Part shown: in pieces, positions 1,500 through 7,350 of the stretch
Position numbering within the stretch: the stretch's first letter is position 1
Layout of the letters: every line of letters begins with the position of its first letter
DNA from: Phycisphaerales bacterium
GTDB taxonomy: Bacteria > Planctomycetota > Phycisphaerae > Phycisphaerales > SM1A02
Assembly: GCA_012965315.1 (NCBI GenBank)
Contig: DTSO01000042.1
Location: forward strand, 1 to 34,474
Length of the DNA stretch: 34,474 nt
Direction of reading: 5' to 3'
Notes under the pieces: model-generated
Seen by the model: only the letters and a program-made list of their open reading frames with translations
The model's database searches: none
Told to the model about the DNA's origin: nothing
Made by a program: the position numbers and the translations under genes

Positions 1500-2447
1500 G
1501 TGGTTACGCTTCTAGTTATGTCATGGAATGTAGATGAGATTAACGATAATGCACTTCGGCTTCTTTGTATTGATGGGCTTGGTGGTGCAACGTTATCAAA
1601 ACTTGTTGTAGCTGCAGGTGGAATCAATGAGGCTGGAGATGCTTTGGAATCTGGCCAGGCAACGGAGTGGTTGCCTAGGGGGGCGAGCGAAATGTTGCGT
1701 GATCGAATGCAACGGATGGAAGTCGATCCAGCACGGTGGTCTGCGGAAGCGGTTGCAGCAAAAATTGTACTTGTCACGGATGATGACTTCCCGCAATTCT
1801 TGTCGCCGCTCCCCGCTTGCCCAGCAGCATTGTGGTATCGGGGCTCACTCGAGGGTCTTTCCCTTGCATCAGTTGGAATTGTTGGATCTCGTAGATGTAC
1901 TAAATATGGGATAGAACAGGCTACCTTGTTCTCAAAAGAAATTGTTCAATCTGATTTAACTGTAATTTCGGGTGGAGCACGTGGTATTGATGCAGCCGCA
2001 CATCGAACAGCAATTCAGTATGGGGGTTCTACCGCAGTTGTTCTTGGTTCAGGTTTAAGCGTCGTATATCCTCCCGAACATGCGACACTATTTGATTCAA
2101 TTGTTCGTGAGAACGGTGTAATTGTGAGTGAATTTCCGTGTCATCGTTCTCCGCGTCCGGCGTATTTTCCTCGTCGAAATAGAATTGTCTCGGGTTTGTC
2201 ATCGGTGGTCCTTGTTGTTGAAGCAGCCCGTAGAAGCGGTGCGCTCATTACAGCAAGGATCGCCGTTGAAGAGCATGGTCGGCAGGTCTTTGCTATTCCA
2301 GGTCGATTAGGTGATAGCACGTCTGCAGGATGCTTGCAATGCATGAGAGATGGCTGGGCTGGAGTGGCAATTCAGCCAGCTGATATTATCGAAGAGGCGG
2401 TAAGTGCTTGGGCGCGTTTATCTAGTAACTTCGCAATACACCAGTAA
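1500..2447 (+). CDS. dprA: DNA processing protein DprA/Smf
   Basis: DprA loads RecA on incoming single-stranded DNA during natural transformation. The Rossmann-like core is clear: VGIVGSRRC (about 125-133), SGGARGIDAAAH (157-168), then FPRRNRIVSGLS (223-234) and EAARRSGALITA (241-252), all diagnostic of the family. The N-terminal 90 residues are helical (LCIDGLGGATLSKLV, helix-hairpin-helix/SAM-like). At 315 residues or fewer it ends soon after the core, so the C-terminal winged-helix domain present in many DprA proteins is absent. The start is uncertain: GTG 1500 or ATG 1518, neither with a Shine-Dalgarno. The last 26 bases overlap the 3' end of lexA on the other strand. No other competence gene is in the window. 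Confidence 0.92.
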   Translation: MVTLLVMSWNVDEINDNALRLLCIDGLGGATLSKLVVAAGGINEAGDALESGQATEWLPRGASEMLRDRMQRMEVDPARWSAEAVAAKIVLVTDDDFPQFLSPLPACPAALWYRGSLEGLSLASVGIVGSRRCTKYGIEQATLFSKEIVQSDLTVISGGARGIDAAAHRTAIQYGGSTAVVLGSGLSVVYPPEHATLFDSIVRENGVIVSEFPCHRSPRPAYFPRRNRIVSGLSSVVLVVEAARRSGALITARIAVEEHGRQVFAIPGRLGDSTSAGCLQCMRDGWAGVAIQPADIIEEAVSAWARLSSNFAIHQ

Positions 2448-3048
2448 CAATTCCCTGCACAACACAATGTTTAACAATGATTGGATCGAACTCAGTATTG
2501 GCTGGTTGAAGTCGAATGGTACCATTCGTTTCTTTATAAAAAGTTTTCAAAGTAGTTTCGCCGTCAGGGAGTAAAGCCACAACACGATCGCCGTTTTTTG
2601 CTGTCGATTGTTTTTGTACTAAAACGAAATCGCCGTCGAGAATGCCCTCGTCTTTCATAGATTCGCCTTCTACTCGGAGAGCGAATGTATCGCCTCGTTG
2701 GCCGACCCTTGGTCCGAACATACTCGTTAAATCTAAAGTTTCGCTGTCTTCACATCGTTCAATCGGCATGCCAGCAGCAATGCGCCCCACCAAAGGAAAC
2801 CGCATCGCTGCATTTTCTTTCTTTTCATACCGTTCTGTTATTGATTCAGCAATCGATAAAGAGCGTGCTCTGTTCGCTTCTCTTGTTAATGCTCCTTTGC
2901 GTATCAACGCTTCTATTCGTTCGAATACCGTTACTTTGCTGACGCCGATTTGTTCGGCTAGTTCTTGCATCGTTGGGGAGTATCCATGATCGTTTTGGCA
3001 TTGTCGAATGAGCTCGATTACTTCGAGTTGTTTGGGCGTGAGGTTCAT
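2422..3048 (-). CDS. lexA: LexA, SOS response repressor and self-cleaving protease
   Basis: This 208-residue protein has an N-terminal winged helix (LTPKQLEVIELIRQ... YSPTMQELAEQIGVSKVTVFERIEAL) and a C-terminal S24 peptidase/LexA dimerisation domain. The autocleavage Ala-Gly bond is at A92-G93 (GRIAAGMP), the nucleophile is S130 (EGESM) and the general base is K168 (TTLKTF). The MNLTPKQ start at 3048 is chosen because AAAGGA sits 8 bases upstream; an in-frame ATG at 3054 is only 2 bases from it. LexA represses DNA-damage genes until RecA filaments trigger cleavage. The operator in planctomycetes is not something I can assert. The 3' end overlaps dprA by 26 bp, tail to tail. Confidence 0.95.
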   Translation of the reverse strand: MNLTPKQLEVIELIRQCQNDHGYSPTMQELAEQIGVSKVTVFERIEALIRKGALTREANRARSLSIAESITERYEKKENAAMRFPLVGRIAAGMPIERCEDSETLDLTSMFGPRVGQRGDTFALRVEGESMKDEGILDGDFVLVQKQSTAKNGDRVVALLPDGETTLKTFYKETNGTIRLQPANTEFDPIIVKHCVVQGIVTGVLRSY

Positions 3049-3439
3049 CGTCATGATCCTTTTGTAAAAGAGGGGTGCGTCCAAAGAGGGTGAGTTGGTT
3101 CACTTTGCAGAATACATTTTCTGCTTCGTGACAAATGTTCTTATATAAGGATGTAATAAGTTTCGCTAATTTATTTTTGCGAGGTTTTCTGCTTGGAGTT
3201 TCGTGCACAGTGATAGTCTCAAGTACTTCAATTGCTGCTGCAGCAGGGGAGAAAAACACTCTGTCGATTTTAAGGATGCGGTCAAGAAATGTTTTTGGTC
3301 GTGCACTTCTGTGTTTTGGCGGTGAAGTGAGTAGTGCTGATGGGGCACCACCTTCTACCGCAACGATGCGATTGCCTTCACCAAAATATTTGGTTCCGTA
3401 TGTTTGACTTGGTCCAAGTTGTAGTAGTGGTACTTCCAT
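2846..3439 (-). CDS. Doubtful open frame upstream of and overlapping lexA
   Basis: The 477 bp between lexA and the aminotransferase hold no recognisable gene. The best candidate is this minus-strand frame, because its ATG (3439) has an AGGAG ribosome binding site about 9 bases upstream. The first 130 or so residues are hydrophilic and basic (for example KTFLDRILKIDRVFF, RKPRKNKLAKLITSLYK) and match no family I know. The remainder runs about 200 bp into lexA in another frame, which is unlikely to be coding. Either the true product ends by a frameshift before lexA, or the frame is accidental. A competing plus-strand frame at 3135-3407 is also possible but has no Shine-Dalgarno. Confidence 0.28.
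   Translation of the reverse strand: MEVPLLQLGPSQTYGTKYFGEGNRIVAVEGGAPSALLTSPPKHRSARPKTFLDRILKIDRVFFSPAAAAIEVLETITVHETPSRKPRKNKLAKLITSLYKNICHEAENVFCKVNQLTLFGRTPLLQKDHDDEPHAQTTRSNRAHSTMPKRSWILPNDARTSRTNRRQQSNGIRTNRSVDTQRSINKRSEQSTLFIDC
3129..3140. promoter_or_regulatory. Possible LexA operator upstream of lexA
   Basis: TGACAAATGTTC lies about 80 bp upstream of the lexA start. Read on the minus strand it is GAACATTTGTCA, an imperfect match to the GAAC-N4-GTTC dyad used by Gram-positive type LexA proteins, with the second half-site degenerate. A TATATAAG stretch beside it could be part of a promoter. It is a single imperfect match, so the call is tentative. Confidence 0.22.
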
Positions 3440-3485
3440 AATGCAATGCTCCTGCCTTCTAAAATTACTATCGGCAAGGTTGTAC

Positions 3486-3509
3486 GGTATATGTTAGGCA
3501 AACATAACC
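3486..3509. promoter_or_regulatory. Inverted repeat, operator-like, upstream of the aminotransferase
   Basis: TATGTT (3490-3495) and AACATA (3501-3506) are perfect complements around AGGCA. The repeat extends outward as GGT...ACC with one unpaired base. It lies between the divergent doubtful minus-strand frame and the aminotransferase gene. It could be an operator or a small hairpin, and no T-tract follows. Confidence 0.35.
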
Positions 3510-3525
3510 ATAATGTCAAATTATA

Positions 3526-4707
3526 TTGAAAAGCGTTATTATTTGCGTTGTGTGTAAGATTCCAGACAAAATAATTTCCAATTCTTGGATGTTGGACCCT
3601 AACATTACTTATTTGAACCACGGAAGTTTTGGCGCGAGGGTGTCTGAGGTTTTTGAATATCAGCAATCCCTCAAAAGAGAACTTGAGCTCTCACCTATTA
3701 ATTTTTTAGATAGACAGCGGTATCGAATCGATGAAGCAAGGAACTGTATTTCCTCTTTCCTTGGTGCTGAAGTAGAGGGGTTTGGCTTTGTTGATAATGC
3801 AACAACTGGAGTTGGTTGTGTGGTGCAGTCCATTCAAATTGAGCCTGAGGATGAAATTTTAACTACGAACCTAGTGTATAACGGAATTAGGCAATTATTA
3901 ACCCGAATTGCTTCTGATGCTTGTTGTTCCTATAGAGAATTGCAGGTTCAGTTTCCATTACAAAGCCAAAATGAATTACTACAATTAATTACCGATGCAA
4001 TTTCAAATAAAACTAAATTACTTGTTGTTGATCACGTAGCTTCTGCTTCGGCTATTGTATTCCCAGTAAAAGAAATAGCTAAAATTTGTAAGGAAAGAGG
4101 CATTTTACTCTTAGTAGATGGGGCGCATGCACCGGGAATGCTTGATCTACATATCGATTCGATTGGAGCAGATTGGTATGTTGGTAATTTGCATAAATGG
4201 ATTTGTGCGCCACTTAGTGCTGGTTTTGTGTACACGTCCGAGCCACACAGGGACACAACACATCCCATGACCATTAGCCATTGGTATAAACAAGGGATAA
4301 CCAATGAATTTAATTGGCAAGGGACTAAAGATATTACTCCTTGGCTTGCTGCAGCAAAAGCAGTCGAATGGGGAAGTAAAATTGGATGGAGCCGAATTCA
4401 ACAACACAACCATGCATTTGCAGTCTGGATGCAAAAGACCTTAGTTGCTACTTGGAATGTTGAGCCTCTTTCGCCTTTAGATGGATCGATGCTTGGATCT
4501 ATGGTGACTGTGCCGCTTCCTGCTACTTTGCCGAATGAAATGGAAGCTTGTTTGGCCTATCGAGATTATTTGTATGAAAATTACCAAATAGAAGTACCAA
4601 TCTTCGAACTTCAAGGTCGTGGAGTCGTACGATTGAGTGGGCAACTCTATTCTCGGGAAGAGCATCTAAAGCGTTTAATATCGGCAGTTTGCGATTATTC
4701 CGCTTGA
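3526..4707 (+). CDS. Class V aminotransferase, isopenicillin-N epimerase (CefD)-like
   Basis: This is a PLP-dependent fold-type I enzyme of about 370-393 residues. It has the family opening WMLDPNITYLNHGSFGA, the PLP-phosphate/ring contacts VDGAHAPG (about 198-205), and the Schiff-base lysine in GNLHKWICAPLSAGF (about 219-233). CefD-like proteins act as epimerases or cysteine desulfurase/lyase-like enzymes, and in most bacteria the substrate is unknown, so none is assigned. No sulfur-assembly or beta-lactam genes are nearby. The start is uncertain: TTG 3526, GTG 3550 or ATG 3589. The W-x-LDP residues found in homologues precede ATG 3589, which favours an upstream start. No clear Shine-Dalgarno is present. 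The gene is monocistronic and is followed by the structured RNA. Confidence 0.88.
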   Translation: MKSVIICVVCKIPDKIISNSWMLDPNITYLNHGSFGARVSEVFEYQQSLKRELELSPINFLDRQRYRIDEARNCISSFLGAEVEGFGFVDNATTGVGCVVQSIQIEPEDEILTTNLVYNGIRQLLTRIASDACCSYRELQVQFPLQSQNELLQLITDAISNKTKLLVVDHVASASAIVFPVKEIAKICKERGILLLVDGAHAPGMLDLHIDSIGADWYVGNLHKWICAPLSAGFVYTSEPHRDTTHPMTISHWYKQGITNEFNWQGTKDITPWLAAAKAVEWGSKIGWSRIQQHNHAFAVWMQKTLVATWNVEPLSPLDGSMLGSMVTVPLPATLPNEMEACLAYRDYLYENYQIEVPIFELQGRGVVRLSGQLYSREEHLKRLISAVCDYSA

Positions 4708-4753
4708 AATGCAAATTATTTTTCGTATTTTAAAGAAATATGACAAATATAAC

Positions 4754-4782
4754 TTGACATATATCCATATTTAGTGCAAATT
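4754..4782 (+). promoter_or_regulatory. Promoter-like element for the structured RNA
   Basis: A perfect -35 box TTGACA (4754-4759) is followed after 17 bp by the weak -10 candidate CAAATT (4777-4782). This would start transcription at about 4788-4790, exactly where the run of hairpins begins. It lies 46 bp after the aminotransferase stop. Confidence 0.5.
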
Positions 4783-4787
4783 AACGA

Positions 4788-5091
4788 TGTCCGTTAGTCG
4801 GATAGTGACAACACTGATTGTTTGCCCTTAGGAGGGTGAGGGATCTATCATCTTTTTGCGAGAGCAAAAAACATGATTTTGCCGAATTCAAAAGGTGTGT
4901 CAAGGGACGGACAAGCCGTATGAATTCGGCATGTTAAGGATCAATACCTTGTTGGTGTTGATAAATGTAAGGGAACATAACCTGACCTGAGAAAGAGGTT
5001 GTGCAACAGACAAACGCTTCCACGTCCTGTTGCTTGGTTAAACTTCAATTTCCCAAAAGATTAGGGCTCTTGGCCGGCAAGAGCCCTTTTT
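4788..5091 (+). ncRNA. Unrecognised structured RNA, about 300 nt, with its own terminator
   Basis: The region has no protein-coding potential and is built of successive hairpins. H1 is TCCG/CGGA (4790-4802), extended by two pairs. H2 is AGTG-ACAA-CACT (4804-4815). H3 is CCCT/AGGG (4825-4836). H4 is TTTTTGC-GAGA-GCAAAAA with a GNRA loop, extended by ATCAT/ATGAT (4847-4877). H5 has a perfect 10-bp stem GCCGAATTCA/TGAATTCGGC (4881-4890/4921-4930) enclosing 30 nt with an inner ACGG/CCGT hairpin. H6 is ATCAATACC/GGTGTTGAT (4940-4962). H7 is AACCT/AGGTT (4979-5000). H8 is GCAACAG/CTGTTGC (5003-5033). The terminator closes it. CAAGG in the H5 loop (4901-4905) can pair with CCTTG (4947-4951), a possible pseudoknot. 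I see none of the hallmarks of RNase P, tmRNA, SRP or cobalamin riboswitch RNA. The next gene lies on the other strand, so this is not a leader. Confidence 0.72.
5064..5091 (+). terminator. Intrinsic terminator of the structured RNA
   Basis: GGGCTCTTG (5064-5072) pairs perfectly with CAAGAGCCC (5078-5086) across a 5-nt loop, followed by TTTTT (5087-5091). No plus-strand protein gene ends within 350 bp upstream, which supports a dedicated RNA transcript. Confidence 0.92.
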
Positions 5092-5149
5092 CATGCTCGT
5101 TACTAATTTGCGCTCGAAATGTTTAGTGATTTTGTAATTTGATAATTGA

Positions 5150-6007
5150 TTAACCGCAATGCGCCAGAGTTGCTGCACCAAGTAGCCCAGCATCAGGTCC
5201 AAGGATGGTGATGCAAATTTCACATTGCTGGCAATGCGGGGGAAAAACGTCTTTGAGGAATTGTTCACGAATCGTCTGTATATAAGATTCGCCGAGAGCT
5301 TCGACAAGACCACCACCGAGAACAACTTTGTTAAGCGAGAGTAGGGTAATTACATTTGCAAGCGAAGTACCAATCCGTTTTGCGCCAGCATTGATAACGG
5401 TGGTTAGTGCTTCGTCTTTACCGTAGCCGTTTTGGATCGTTTTGGTATCTAGTTCGGGGTTTTGAAGAATTCTTTGCATTCCGCTTCTGCTTGCAAATGC
5501 CTCGAGTACTCTGTGAGAATGGTCATCGCTATGCTCGCAGATGCCCATGCCAAATTCACCACCAGTGCCAAGAGGTCCTCGCCAGATTGTGTTATTTAAG
5601 ATTAAGCCTCCGCCGATTCCAGTACCAATCCATACCGCGAAGAGCGATTCAGAACCTCTACCAGCGCCAAACTTAAATTCCCCCCAAGCTGCGGCGGTGA
5701 CATCATTTTCAATAATAACGTTGCAATGCAATTTTTCGCTAATAAACTGAGCTAGGGGCACATTGTCCCAATCTAAATTCTCAGCACGAAGGACAATGCC
5801 ATTTGTAGCATCAACACTTCCTGCAACGGAGATTCCGACACCATCGCGTACATCTGCGCCGAGTTCAGTAACAGCATCGCAAACTTGATTTGCTACAGTT
5901 TCAAAATCGCCTCGAGCAACTATTGGTTGATGTAATCGTTGAACTACTTTGTTCTGCTCAATGCAACCAACAAGTAAATTGGTGCCACCGATATCAATGC
6001 CAATCAC
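5150..6007 (-). CDS. ROK-family sugar kinase lacking the usual zinc motif
   Basis: This is a glucokinase-like ROK protein of 285 residues when started at GTG 6007, where GTGA overlaps the gatA stop by 4 nt and the protein begins directly with the ATP-binding IGIDIGGTN. Other motifs are ENDVTAAAWGE (catalytic Asp region), GTGIGGGLI, and VLGGGLVEA near the C terminus. ROK proteins normally carry GH...CxCGxxGC, which builds a zinc site and helps bind the sugar. Here the equivalent stretch reads GTGGEFGMGICEHSDDHSHRVLEAFAS, so both the His of ExGH and the cysteine cluster are missing. Substrate is therefore uncertain (glucose or an amino sugar are family possibilities). No DNA-binding domain is present, so it is a kinase type and not a NagC/XylR repressor. 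Confidence 0.85.
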   Translation of the reverse strand: MIGIDIGGTNLLVGCIEQNKVVQRLHQPIVARGDFETVANQVCDAVTELGADVRDGVGISVAGSVDATNGIVLRAENLDWDNVPLAQFISEKLHCNVIIENDVTAAAWGEFKFGAGRGSESLFAVWIGTGIGGGLILNNTIWRGPLGTGGEFGMGICEHSDDHSHRVLEAFASRSGMQRILQNPELDTKTIQNGYGKDEALTTVINAGAKRIGTSLANVITLLSLNKVVLGGGLVEALGESYIQTIREQFLKDVFPPHCQQCEICITILGPDAGLLGAATLAHCG

Positions 6008-7350
6008 GTTATTGACTCGGGCGTTTTTGTATGAAAGGTTGTGTTCTTCTGAAAAAGTTGGGCAACGCGAAGTAAGTTTGCATCGTCGTACCATGCCGCT
6101 TGTAAATGTAATCCGATTGGAAGCGGATTGCCGGTTGTTTCTGAAAAACCACAAGGAATAGAAATGCCACAAATGCCTGCGATGTTAGTGTTCGCTGTAT
6201 AGACATCGCAAAGATACATTGCTAATGGGTCTGCTTTTTCACCGATTTTGAATGCTGTTGTGGGCGTTGTTGGCCCAAGGATCACATCACACACTTCGAA
6301 AGCACGTTTGTACTCTTCGCTAATGAGTCGTCTTGTTTTTAATGCATTGTTGTAATACGCATCGTAATACCCGCTACTAAGAACATACGTACCGAGCATG
6401 ATTCTGCGTTTTACTTCGTCGCCAAAACCTTCTGCGCGGCTCTCTGAATACAGTTCGAATAAATCTTTGCATGGTTTAGCCGTTCGGTGTCCGTATCGAA
6501 TTCCATCGTATCTTGCTAAGTTGCTCGAACATTCCGCTGGAGCAAGAACGTAATACGTTGAAATCCCAACTTCGGTGAGCGGTAAATCAATGTCTACTAT
6601 TGTTGCTCCAAGTTCTCTGTATGTTTCTATAGCAGCAGAGATTGCAGAGTCAACATCAGGACTATTTTGCCCACCGATATATTGTGCTGCTACTCCAATG
6701 CGTAACGTATCGAAGGGGGAATCGAGGTTTGTTGTTAAATCTGGTGAAGGTTCGTTTCGGCAAGTTGAATCAAATTCATCAAAACCTGCCATCACTTCAG
6801 TTACTTTTGCGACATCTTCGACTGTTGTGGCAAAGGCACCAATTTGATCTAAACTCGATGCGAATGCTACAAGTCCGTAACGGCTGACCAATCCGTAGGT
6901 TGGTTTGTACCCGACGATGCCGCATAGTGCTGCAGGTTGTCGGATTGAACCACCGGTGTCAGACCCGAGAGCTACATCGCAAAGCCGAGCTGCAACAGCA
7001 GCAGCGCTACCTCCCGACGAACCGCCAGGCACTCTCGTTGTATCCCAGGGATTTAGCACGGGTCCCCAAGCGCAGTGCTCTGTGGAAGAACCCATAGCAA
7101 ATTCGTCACAATTTGTTTTGCCAACAAGTGTAGCGCCAGCGCAAAGCAATCGGTCAATTACAGTTGCATTGAATGGGGATTCATATCCATCAAGCATTTT
7201 TGAACCACACGTTGTTGTGCCCGTTGTTGTAACAATGTTGTCTTTGACTGCGACAGTCAATCCATCCAGTACACCGTTTTGTGCTGTGTTTGGTTGTTCC
7301 CAGACTTCACGGAAAGCATTGTATGTATCACCTTTTTGAATAGTGTTCAT
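6004..7350 (-). CDS. gatA: Glutamyl-tRNA(Gln)/aspartyl-tRNA(Asn) amidotransferase subunit A
   Basis: GatA is the glutaminase subunit of GatCAB, which converts Glu-tRNA(Gln) and/or Asp-tRNA(Asn) to the amidated form, supplying NH3 to GatB. The amidase-signature triad is intact: K36 (VAVKDN), cis-Ser S111 (PGGSSGGSAAAVAA) and nucleophile S135 (GSDTGGSIRQPAA). Spacings of 75 and 24 residues match characterised GatA proteins. Its 448 residues are somewhat shorter than the usual 480 or so. The ATG at 7350 overlaps the gatC stop (ATGA), and its own TGA overlaps the GTG of the ROK kinase, so all three are probably translated as a coupled unit. gatB is not in the window. Confidence 0.97.
   Translation of the reverse strand: MNTIQKGDTYNAFREVWEQPNTAQNGVLDGLTVAVKDNIVTTTGTTTCGSKMLDGYESPFNATVIDRLLCAGATLVGKTNCDEFAMGSSTEHCAWGPVLNPWDTTRVPGGSSGGSAAAVAARLCDVALGSDTGGSIRQPAALCGIVGYKPTYGLVSRYGLVAFASSLDQIGAFATTVEDVAKVTEVMAGFDEFDSTCRNEPSPDLTTNLDSPFDTLRIGVAAQYIGGQNSPDVDSAISAAIETYRELGATIVDIDLPLTEVGISTYYVLAPAECSSNLARYDGIRYGHRTAKPCKDLFELYSESRAEGFGDEVKRRIMLGTYVLSSGYYDAYYNNALKTRRLISEEYKRAFEVCDVILGPTTPTTAFKIGEKADPLAMYLCDVYTANTNIAGICGISIPCGFSETTGNPLPIGLHLQAAWYDDANLLRVAQLFQKNTTFHTKTPESIT

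Follow-up and report, generated by a model that had tools for sequence, protein, structure and literature searches.

Compensatory base changes beyond those expected by chance mark the stretch from 4754 to 5091 on the + strand of the window (the whole 34,474-nt piece of DNA that was analysed) as a structured non-coding RNA, judged from the sequence of 11 related copies. The candidate gene, promoter box included, lies in the gap between the stop of an aminotransferase gene at 4707 and the stop of a convergent ROK kinase gene at 5150. By sequence it appears to be an uncatalogued, genus-restricted structured RNA gene that belongs to the known orphan structured RNAs. Catalogued RNA families are few in planctomycetes, and in a count given in PMC9029176 the annotated sRNAs number 8 for the PVC group as a whole, compared with 345 for Proteobacteria. 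An RNA gene that is present in all 11 examinable assemblies of the genus and that covaries is a clear experimental target: its loops, stems and junction have been delimited, so that specific mutants and binding partners can be named. The genome of the window comprises 1.91 Mb in 134 contigs, and the finding suggests that a genome of ~1.9 Mb is able to acquire a large RNA gene of its own and to retain it. The features of the locus are as follows.

3526–4707, + strand: class-V aminotransferase gene (Pfam Aminotran_5), the upstream flanking gene, assigned by Pfam match
4754–4782, + strand: candidate promoter, with TTGACA at 4754–4759, a 17-nt spacer and CAAATT as the −10 box at 4777–4782
4790–4802, + strand: P1, small hairpin of the consensus fold, located where the 5′ end is predicted
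4816–4845, + strand: P2, variable hairpin in which two helices were counted
4847–4877, + strand: P3, hairpin; in the window sequence its loop is GAGA
4880–4931, + strand: P4, 10-bp stem and inner hairpin, with the loop AAGGGACG at 4902–4909
4940–4962, + strand: P5, hairpin with 8 counted pairs
4971–5054, + strand: putative three-way-junction domain, P6a and P6b enclosing P7 and P8
4971–4975 with 5050–5054, + strand: P6a (GGGAA/UUCCC), outer junction helix
4978–4982 with 5036–5040, + strand: P6b (UAACC/GGUUA), from a best-helix search between the flanks
4985–4999, + strand: P7, hairpin with the loop GAGAAAG
5003–5033, + strand: P8, hairpin, its loop region carrying GCUUCCAC at 5016–5023
5063–5091, + strand: intrinsic terminator, with a 10-bp stem (5063–5087), the loop GCCGG and a U tract
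5150–6172, − strand: ROK-family kinase, convergent flanking ORF as listed, its true start probably further in

The window RNA folds with a minimum free energy of −109 kcal/mol, against −80.4 ± 4.9 for 100 shuffles (z −5.9), and over the 11 homologues, with 60 shuffles each, z ranges from −2.2 to −6.4. The consensus fold of the homologues has eight hairpins, terminator counted, in agreement with the eight consecutive hairpins of the original prediction; the perfect 10-bp stem named there was found as UGCCGAAUUC/GAAUUCGGCA, and the 7-bp stem with a GAGA loop is likewise present in the window sequence. The alignment comprises 11 related sequences of one genus, in two sub-clades. Over the full length, 94.4% of 844 cells are paired, 27 of 77 pairs have changed on both sides, and 71 cells carry a two-sided change compared with 23.3 in shuffles (0 of 500 as high), counts in which, the rows being related and divided between two sub-clades, the shuffles overstate independence and the cells overstate events. 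For the core, which spans 178 nt in the window and holds 44 pairs or 484 cells over the 11 sequences, pairing reaches 99.0%, 14 of the 44 pairs have changed on both sides, and two-sided changes fall in 44 cells, where shuffles give 12.8 (0 of 500 as high); sliding the partner as a control lowered pairing to 30–48%. Further pair types in the core, at 35 versus 34.7 in shuffles, are not above chance. The strongest helix is P5, in which 8 of 8 pairs have changed on both sides and 100% of cells are paired, and the outer and inner stems of P4 are paired in 100% and 98.7% of cells. Two-sided changes also affect 7 of 13 pairs in P3 (82.9% of cells paired), 5 of 8 in P2 (86.4 and 81.8%) and 3 of 7 in the P8 stem. 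P1, P6a and P7 are without any such change; the three counted pairs of P1 are kept in 10 of 11 sequences, and P6a is paired in 96.4% of cells. Homologues with compensatory changes, which had been proposed as a test of the RNA, are thus at hand in 11 copies from the genus.

The helix P6b, missed by the programs, was hinted at by the fold of one homologue (L010), which has a further helix around P7 and P8. At this position the best-helix search gave at least 5 bp in 11 of 11 sequences: UAACC/GGUUA in six, an extended version in L006, GAACU/AGUUC in L008 and GUAAC/GUUAC variants in L009–L011. The lengths sum to 65, a total that none of 2000 flank shuffles attained (44.7 ± 3.0); shuffled flanks reach at least 5 bp in 17–37% of trials per sequence, and in 0 of 2000 for all 11 together. 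When flanks were swapped between types, three of six combinations still formed at least 5 bp somewhere and three formed only 3–4 bp. That P6b is real and would make a three-way junction with P6a is supported by these comparisons, not proven, and is less firm than the other covariation. The possible CAAGG/CCTTG pseudoknot of the original prediction is not supported: CAAGG is fixed while its partner is not conserved (CCTTG, CTTAG, TCTTG, CTTTG, CATTG, GCATG, ATGTG and GTTTG occur), and full pairing is seen in only 4 of the 11 sequences. Of its cells 45 of 55 are still able to pair, and two-sided changes are impossible because CAAGG never varies. We also observed that AAGGGA occurs twice, in the P4 loop (4902–4907) and in the 5′ strand of P6a (4969–4974), as does UUCC, in the P8 loop (5016–5023) and in the 3′ strand of P6a (5050–5054). 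With these duplications the strands could exchange partners, and such an exchange is a possible switch, on which covariation is uninformative since the letters hardly vary.

The perfect TTGACA −35 box that had been predicted is present at 4754–4759, and none of the 11 homologues departs from it, although its surroundings are poorly conserved. Within the −10 box CAAATT, letters 2 and 6 are invariant in the 11 homologues and letters 1 and 3 nearly so. A promoter scan of 4600–5200 returned four sites (1.4 ± 1.3 in shuffles); the TTGACA at 4754 was not among them because of its poor −10, CAAATT, and the case for this putative promoter rests on conservation. From its spacing the start would be expected at ~4788–4790, and we infer that transcription from the 4754 box, ending at 5091, would yield a transcript of ~303 nt. 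The terminator stem is paired in 99.0% of cells over the 11 homologues, and one of its pairs shows a two-sided change, from UA to CG, in three homologues. It had been described as a strong terminator with a 9-bp stem; the U's do run to 5091, but the stem has 10 bp. The terminator scan lists the stem 5063–5087 as terminator-like on the − strand too, and it may therefore also end transcripts of the convergent ROK kinase.

A blastn search of 61 genomes identified clear homologues in 11 of 13 genomes of the genus, that of the window included, with one copy found per genome. No homologue was found in the other two: in one (G008) the locus ends inside the ROK gene, which is cut by a contig end, and in the other (G010) no ROK gene was found. 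The RNA is therefore present in 11 of the 11 assemblies with an examinable locus. An exact 22-mer search of genome contigs returned 10 records, which by blast scores are the loci of the ten relatives. Among 48 genomes of other genera the best blastn E value was 0.04, and of the 19 other-genus loci with short blastn matches, the nine inspected by eye (L012, L014, L015, L017, L019, L022 and L028–L030) had no similarity past the short match. A covariance model run on 181 genomes of the family, with only 15 candidates per genome scored, a setting that distant relatives can escape, gave 11 matches, all within the genus. With the other sub-clade as query, the same 181 genomes gave the same 11 and three genomes of other genera at E 0.027–0.043. 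Allowing up to 3 mismatches, the 22-mer matched 13 of 397 genomes of the class, four in the genus and nine outside it (2–3 mismatches), the latter number being at chance level since the reversed pattern matches 16 genomes. Scored by the model with filters off, these nine were rejected: the best reached 13.7 bits (E 0.015 for that search) and lies inside a 306-aa ORF, which we take to encode a PyrF-like decarboxylase, and the match with 2 mismatches, which scored 5.0 bits across 13 positions, extends into the end of a 481-aa ORF. Within the limits of these searches, the RNA appears to be restricted to one genus, with nothing convincing outside it.

Three segments are identical in 11 of 11 sequences: the P4 loop AAGGGACG; CCUGAGAAAGAGGUUGUG, which continues through P7 and includes the loop GAGAAAG; and GCUUCCAC in the P8 loop region. 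Compensated stems beside frozen loops suggest the pattern of a recognition surface. To the window copy, the core is 96.6, 91.1, 88.8, 90.5 and 70.0% identical in five comparisons, in which the RNase P RNA is 97.9, 88.3, 89.4, 83.4 (a copy cut at the contig end) and 84.5% identical; RNase P was searched in ten congeners, and two partial copies and three genomes without match were left out. In four of the five comparisons the core identity is therefore close to the RNase P RNA value, whereas in the deeper clade it is 70.0% versus 84.5%. The whole transcript, at 63.7–90.7%, lies below the core, and the first 90 nt are 43.6–73.9% identical.

Comparison with Rfam 15 (4227 models, SRP RNA covered, with the curated gathering score as threshold) returned only two tRNAs for the window, both elsewhere, and no family for 7 of the 10 other homologous loci (L003, L004 and L009 left out), so that the Rfam search suggested in the original prediction gave no significant match for the RNA in the window and these seven loci. 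With relaxed cut-offs, the window copy and the homologues L010 and L005 yielded sub-threshold matches only, which for 4700–5150 were suhB at 26.1 bits and weaker ones to mir-83 and gCoV-3UTR. The suhB/MmgR match (RF00519), the best of these, covers 5025–5101 with E 0.0024 for this stretch; however, it stays below the gathering score of 41 and is lower still in L010 (15.1 bits) and in L005 (20.6 bits; here the RNA is on the − strand of its locus), and because of this drop it is taken as following the terminator. The suhB/MmgR model is also only 77 nt long, without anything like P1–P8. The absence of hallmarks of RNase P, tmRNA, SRP or 6S RNA noted earlier agrees with the lack of an Rfam family here: the RNase P of the genome lies elsewhere, on contig C48 (274.6 bits), as does its tmRNA, on C134 (75.2 bits), and the lax scan of 4700–5150 contained no 6S (RF00013) match. 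A genome-wide search for 6S RNA at E 0.001 did not find it in this 92%-complete genome, the model having a limited reach, with matches in 5 of 14 control genomes; 6S RNA is possibly absent, divergent or unassembled. The present RNA is like 6S in being free-standing, in a genome without a 6S match to occupy that role, but it is a chain of hairpins with a junction, whereas 6S RNA is one long stem with a central bubble. With the orphan structured ncRNAs of Weinberg et al. 2010 (PMC2864571), such as Ocean-V, Whalefall-1 and Gut-1, it shares, as that paper characterises them, detection by covariation, a role that is not cis-regulatory, restriction to a lineage or habitat and an unknown function; it differs in fitting no Rfam family at threshold. 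Rhodopirellula-1, the sole motif in the table of PMC2864571 with Planctomycetes among its taxa, has no Rfam number there and is listed as probably cis-regulatory. A limited search of the open-access literature (titles and starts of abstracts) revealed no description of this RNA.

What the RNA does can be proposed from its conservation and position. We give an even chance to the reading that it is a free-standing, non-coding, trans-acting structured RNA of ~303 nt whose core of P4 and the junction most likely binds a protein, trans action being inferred from its position. P1–P3 would then be a variable 5′ scaffold, and P4 together with the 3′ three-way junction (P6a/P6b/P7/P8) the working core, presenting the three invariant segments AAGGGACG, GAGAAAG and GCUUCCAC; this core would bind a protein partner, either in an RNA–protein particle or as a protein-regulating RNA. 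Our preference is for a protein-binding core, because so much of the fold has been retained along with three separate segments. These invariant segments might just as well act as pairing seeds. Tentatively, and we think this unlikely, the RNA may be the first representative of a class of RNA–protein particles or protein-regulating RNAs not recognised before, its junction core having arisen in this genus of small-genome planctomycetes; equally tentative is the part of that reading by which the core would have been conserved nearly as well as RNase P RNA across the main clade.

The main rival to protein binding is a base-pairing role for GCUUCCAC. A trans-encoded sRNA, possible if on the unlikely side, would use this segment, with the UUUCCC tail, to pair with purine-rich ribosome-binding sites and block or stabilise mRNAs. 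It would account for a conserved −35 box and terminator of its own (the promoter by conservation only) in an RNA with no cis target, and for the pyrimidine-rich GCUUCCAC of the P8 loop region, which is unchanged in all 11 sequences. In such sRNAs, pyrimidine tracts commonly occur close to the 3′ end. However, the RNA is long, highly folded and conserved far beyond what a seed would require, and UUUCCC is occupied by P6a. Sequestration of CsrA by invariant AGGGA/AGGA motifs in loops and linkers, as in a CsrA/Rsm-type sponge, appears improbable. The CsrA motif has an ANGGA core, and the invariant apical loop of P4, CAAGGGACG, contains it, with the GGA unpaired at no less than 0.58 in every one of the 11 sequences and above 0.9 in 9 of them. 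Two genes matching CsrA, the second lower-scoring, are present in 13 of 13 genomes of the genus; in that of the window, the canonical CsrA gene and a FliW gene lie side by side (L108:981–1737, on contig C46 of G000). ANGGA occurs 32 times in the 11 sequences versus 14.7 ± 3.4 in shuffles and AGGGA 25 times versus 3.8 ± 1.9 (each 0 of 300 as high), an excess that comes from about three conserved sites in related, non-independent copies. GGA itself, however, is not enriched (62 versus 57.0 ± 5.7, 67 of 300 shuffles as high), one of these roughly three sites is paired in P6a, and CsrA was found in 31 of 31 genomes searched whereas the RNA was found in one genus. With the CsrB/RsmZ-type sRNAs the present RNA thus shares an encoded CsrA and an invariant ANGGA apical loop, but it differs in a GGA count not above shuffles and in a CsrA gene that adjoins that of FliW, which PMC4682653, in a passage on Planctomycetes among others, suggests to be a CsrA antagonist.

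Readings in which the stretch is not a free-standing RNA gene fare less well still. That it encodes a small protein, for example from a GTG frame after AAAGAGG at 5001, or is chance or mobile sequence, we consider extremely improbable. ORFs of at least 25 codons occur in every homologue (the longest has 75), AAAGAGG resembles a ribosome-binding site, and the GTG frame is open to the transcript end in 7 of 11. Yet it stops at codon 2 in L009–L011 and at codon 12 in L006, single-base shifts make its reading diverge in L004, L005 and L008, and in the window it continues through the terminator; a conserved reading frame was not found in the 11 homologues, the other ORFs varying in position and length. 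A mobile origin is at odds with the single copy, and neither blastn (E 0.01) against phages and plasmids nor the exact 22-mer in viral contigs gave a match. Very improbable, too, is that the RNA is part of the aminotransferase mRNA, whether as its 3′ untranslated region or as a processed tail, or that it is a cis element belonging to a neighbouring gene. At all 11 homologous loci (including L003, whose ROK copy is cut by the contig) it does lie directly behind the aminotransferase gene on the same strand, facing the convergent ROK kinase, with 46 nt in the window from the aminotransferase stop to the −35 box. But this invariant box separates the two, and the downstream gene, which was correctly placed on the opposite strand from the outset, is convergent. 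Moreover, the RNA model found no homologue (best 7.8 bits, E 1.6) at 19 aminotransferase loci of other genera, the best-scoring among 151 other-genus genomes with a match. The invariant −35 box, together with a conserved terminator and neighbours that stay the same, adds weight to the initial view of a stand-alone RNA. Within the 1.5-kb flanks of the 19 loci, in which a ROK gene farther away would be missed, ROK was found in 0 of 19 and LexA in 15 of 19, so that in this comparison the gene junction of the RNA occurs only in the one genus. The divergent LexA/aminotransferase pair (2422–4707 in the window), which is kept in those 15 of the 19 loci (L070–L088), represents a stable lexA neighbourhood.
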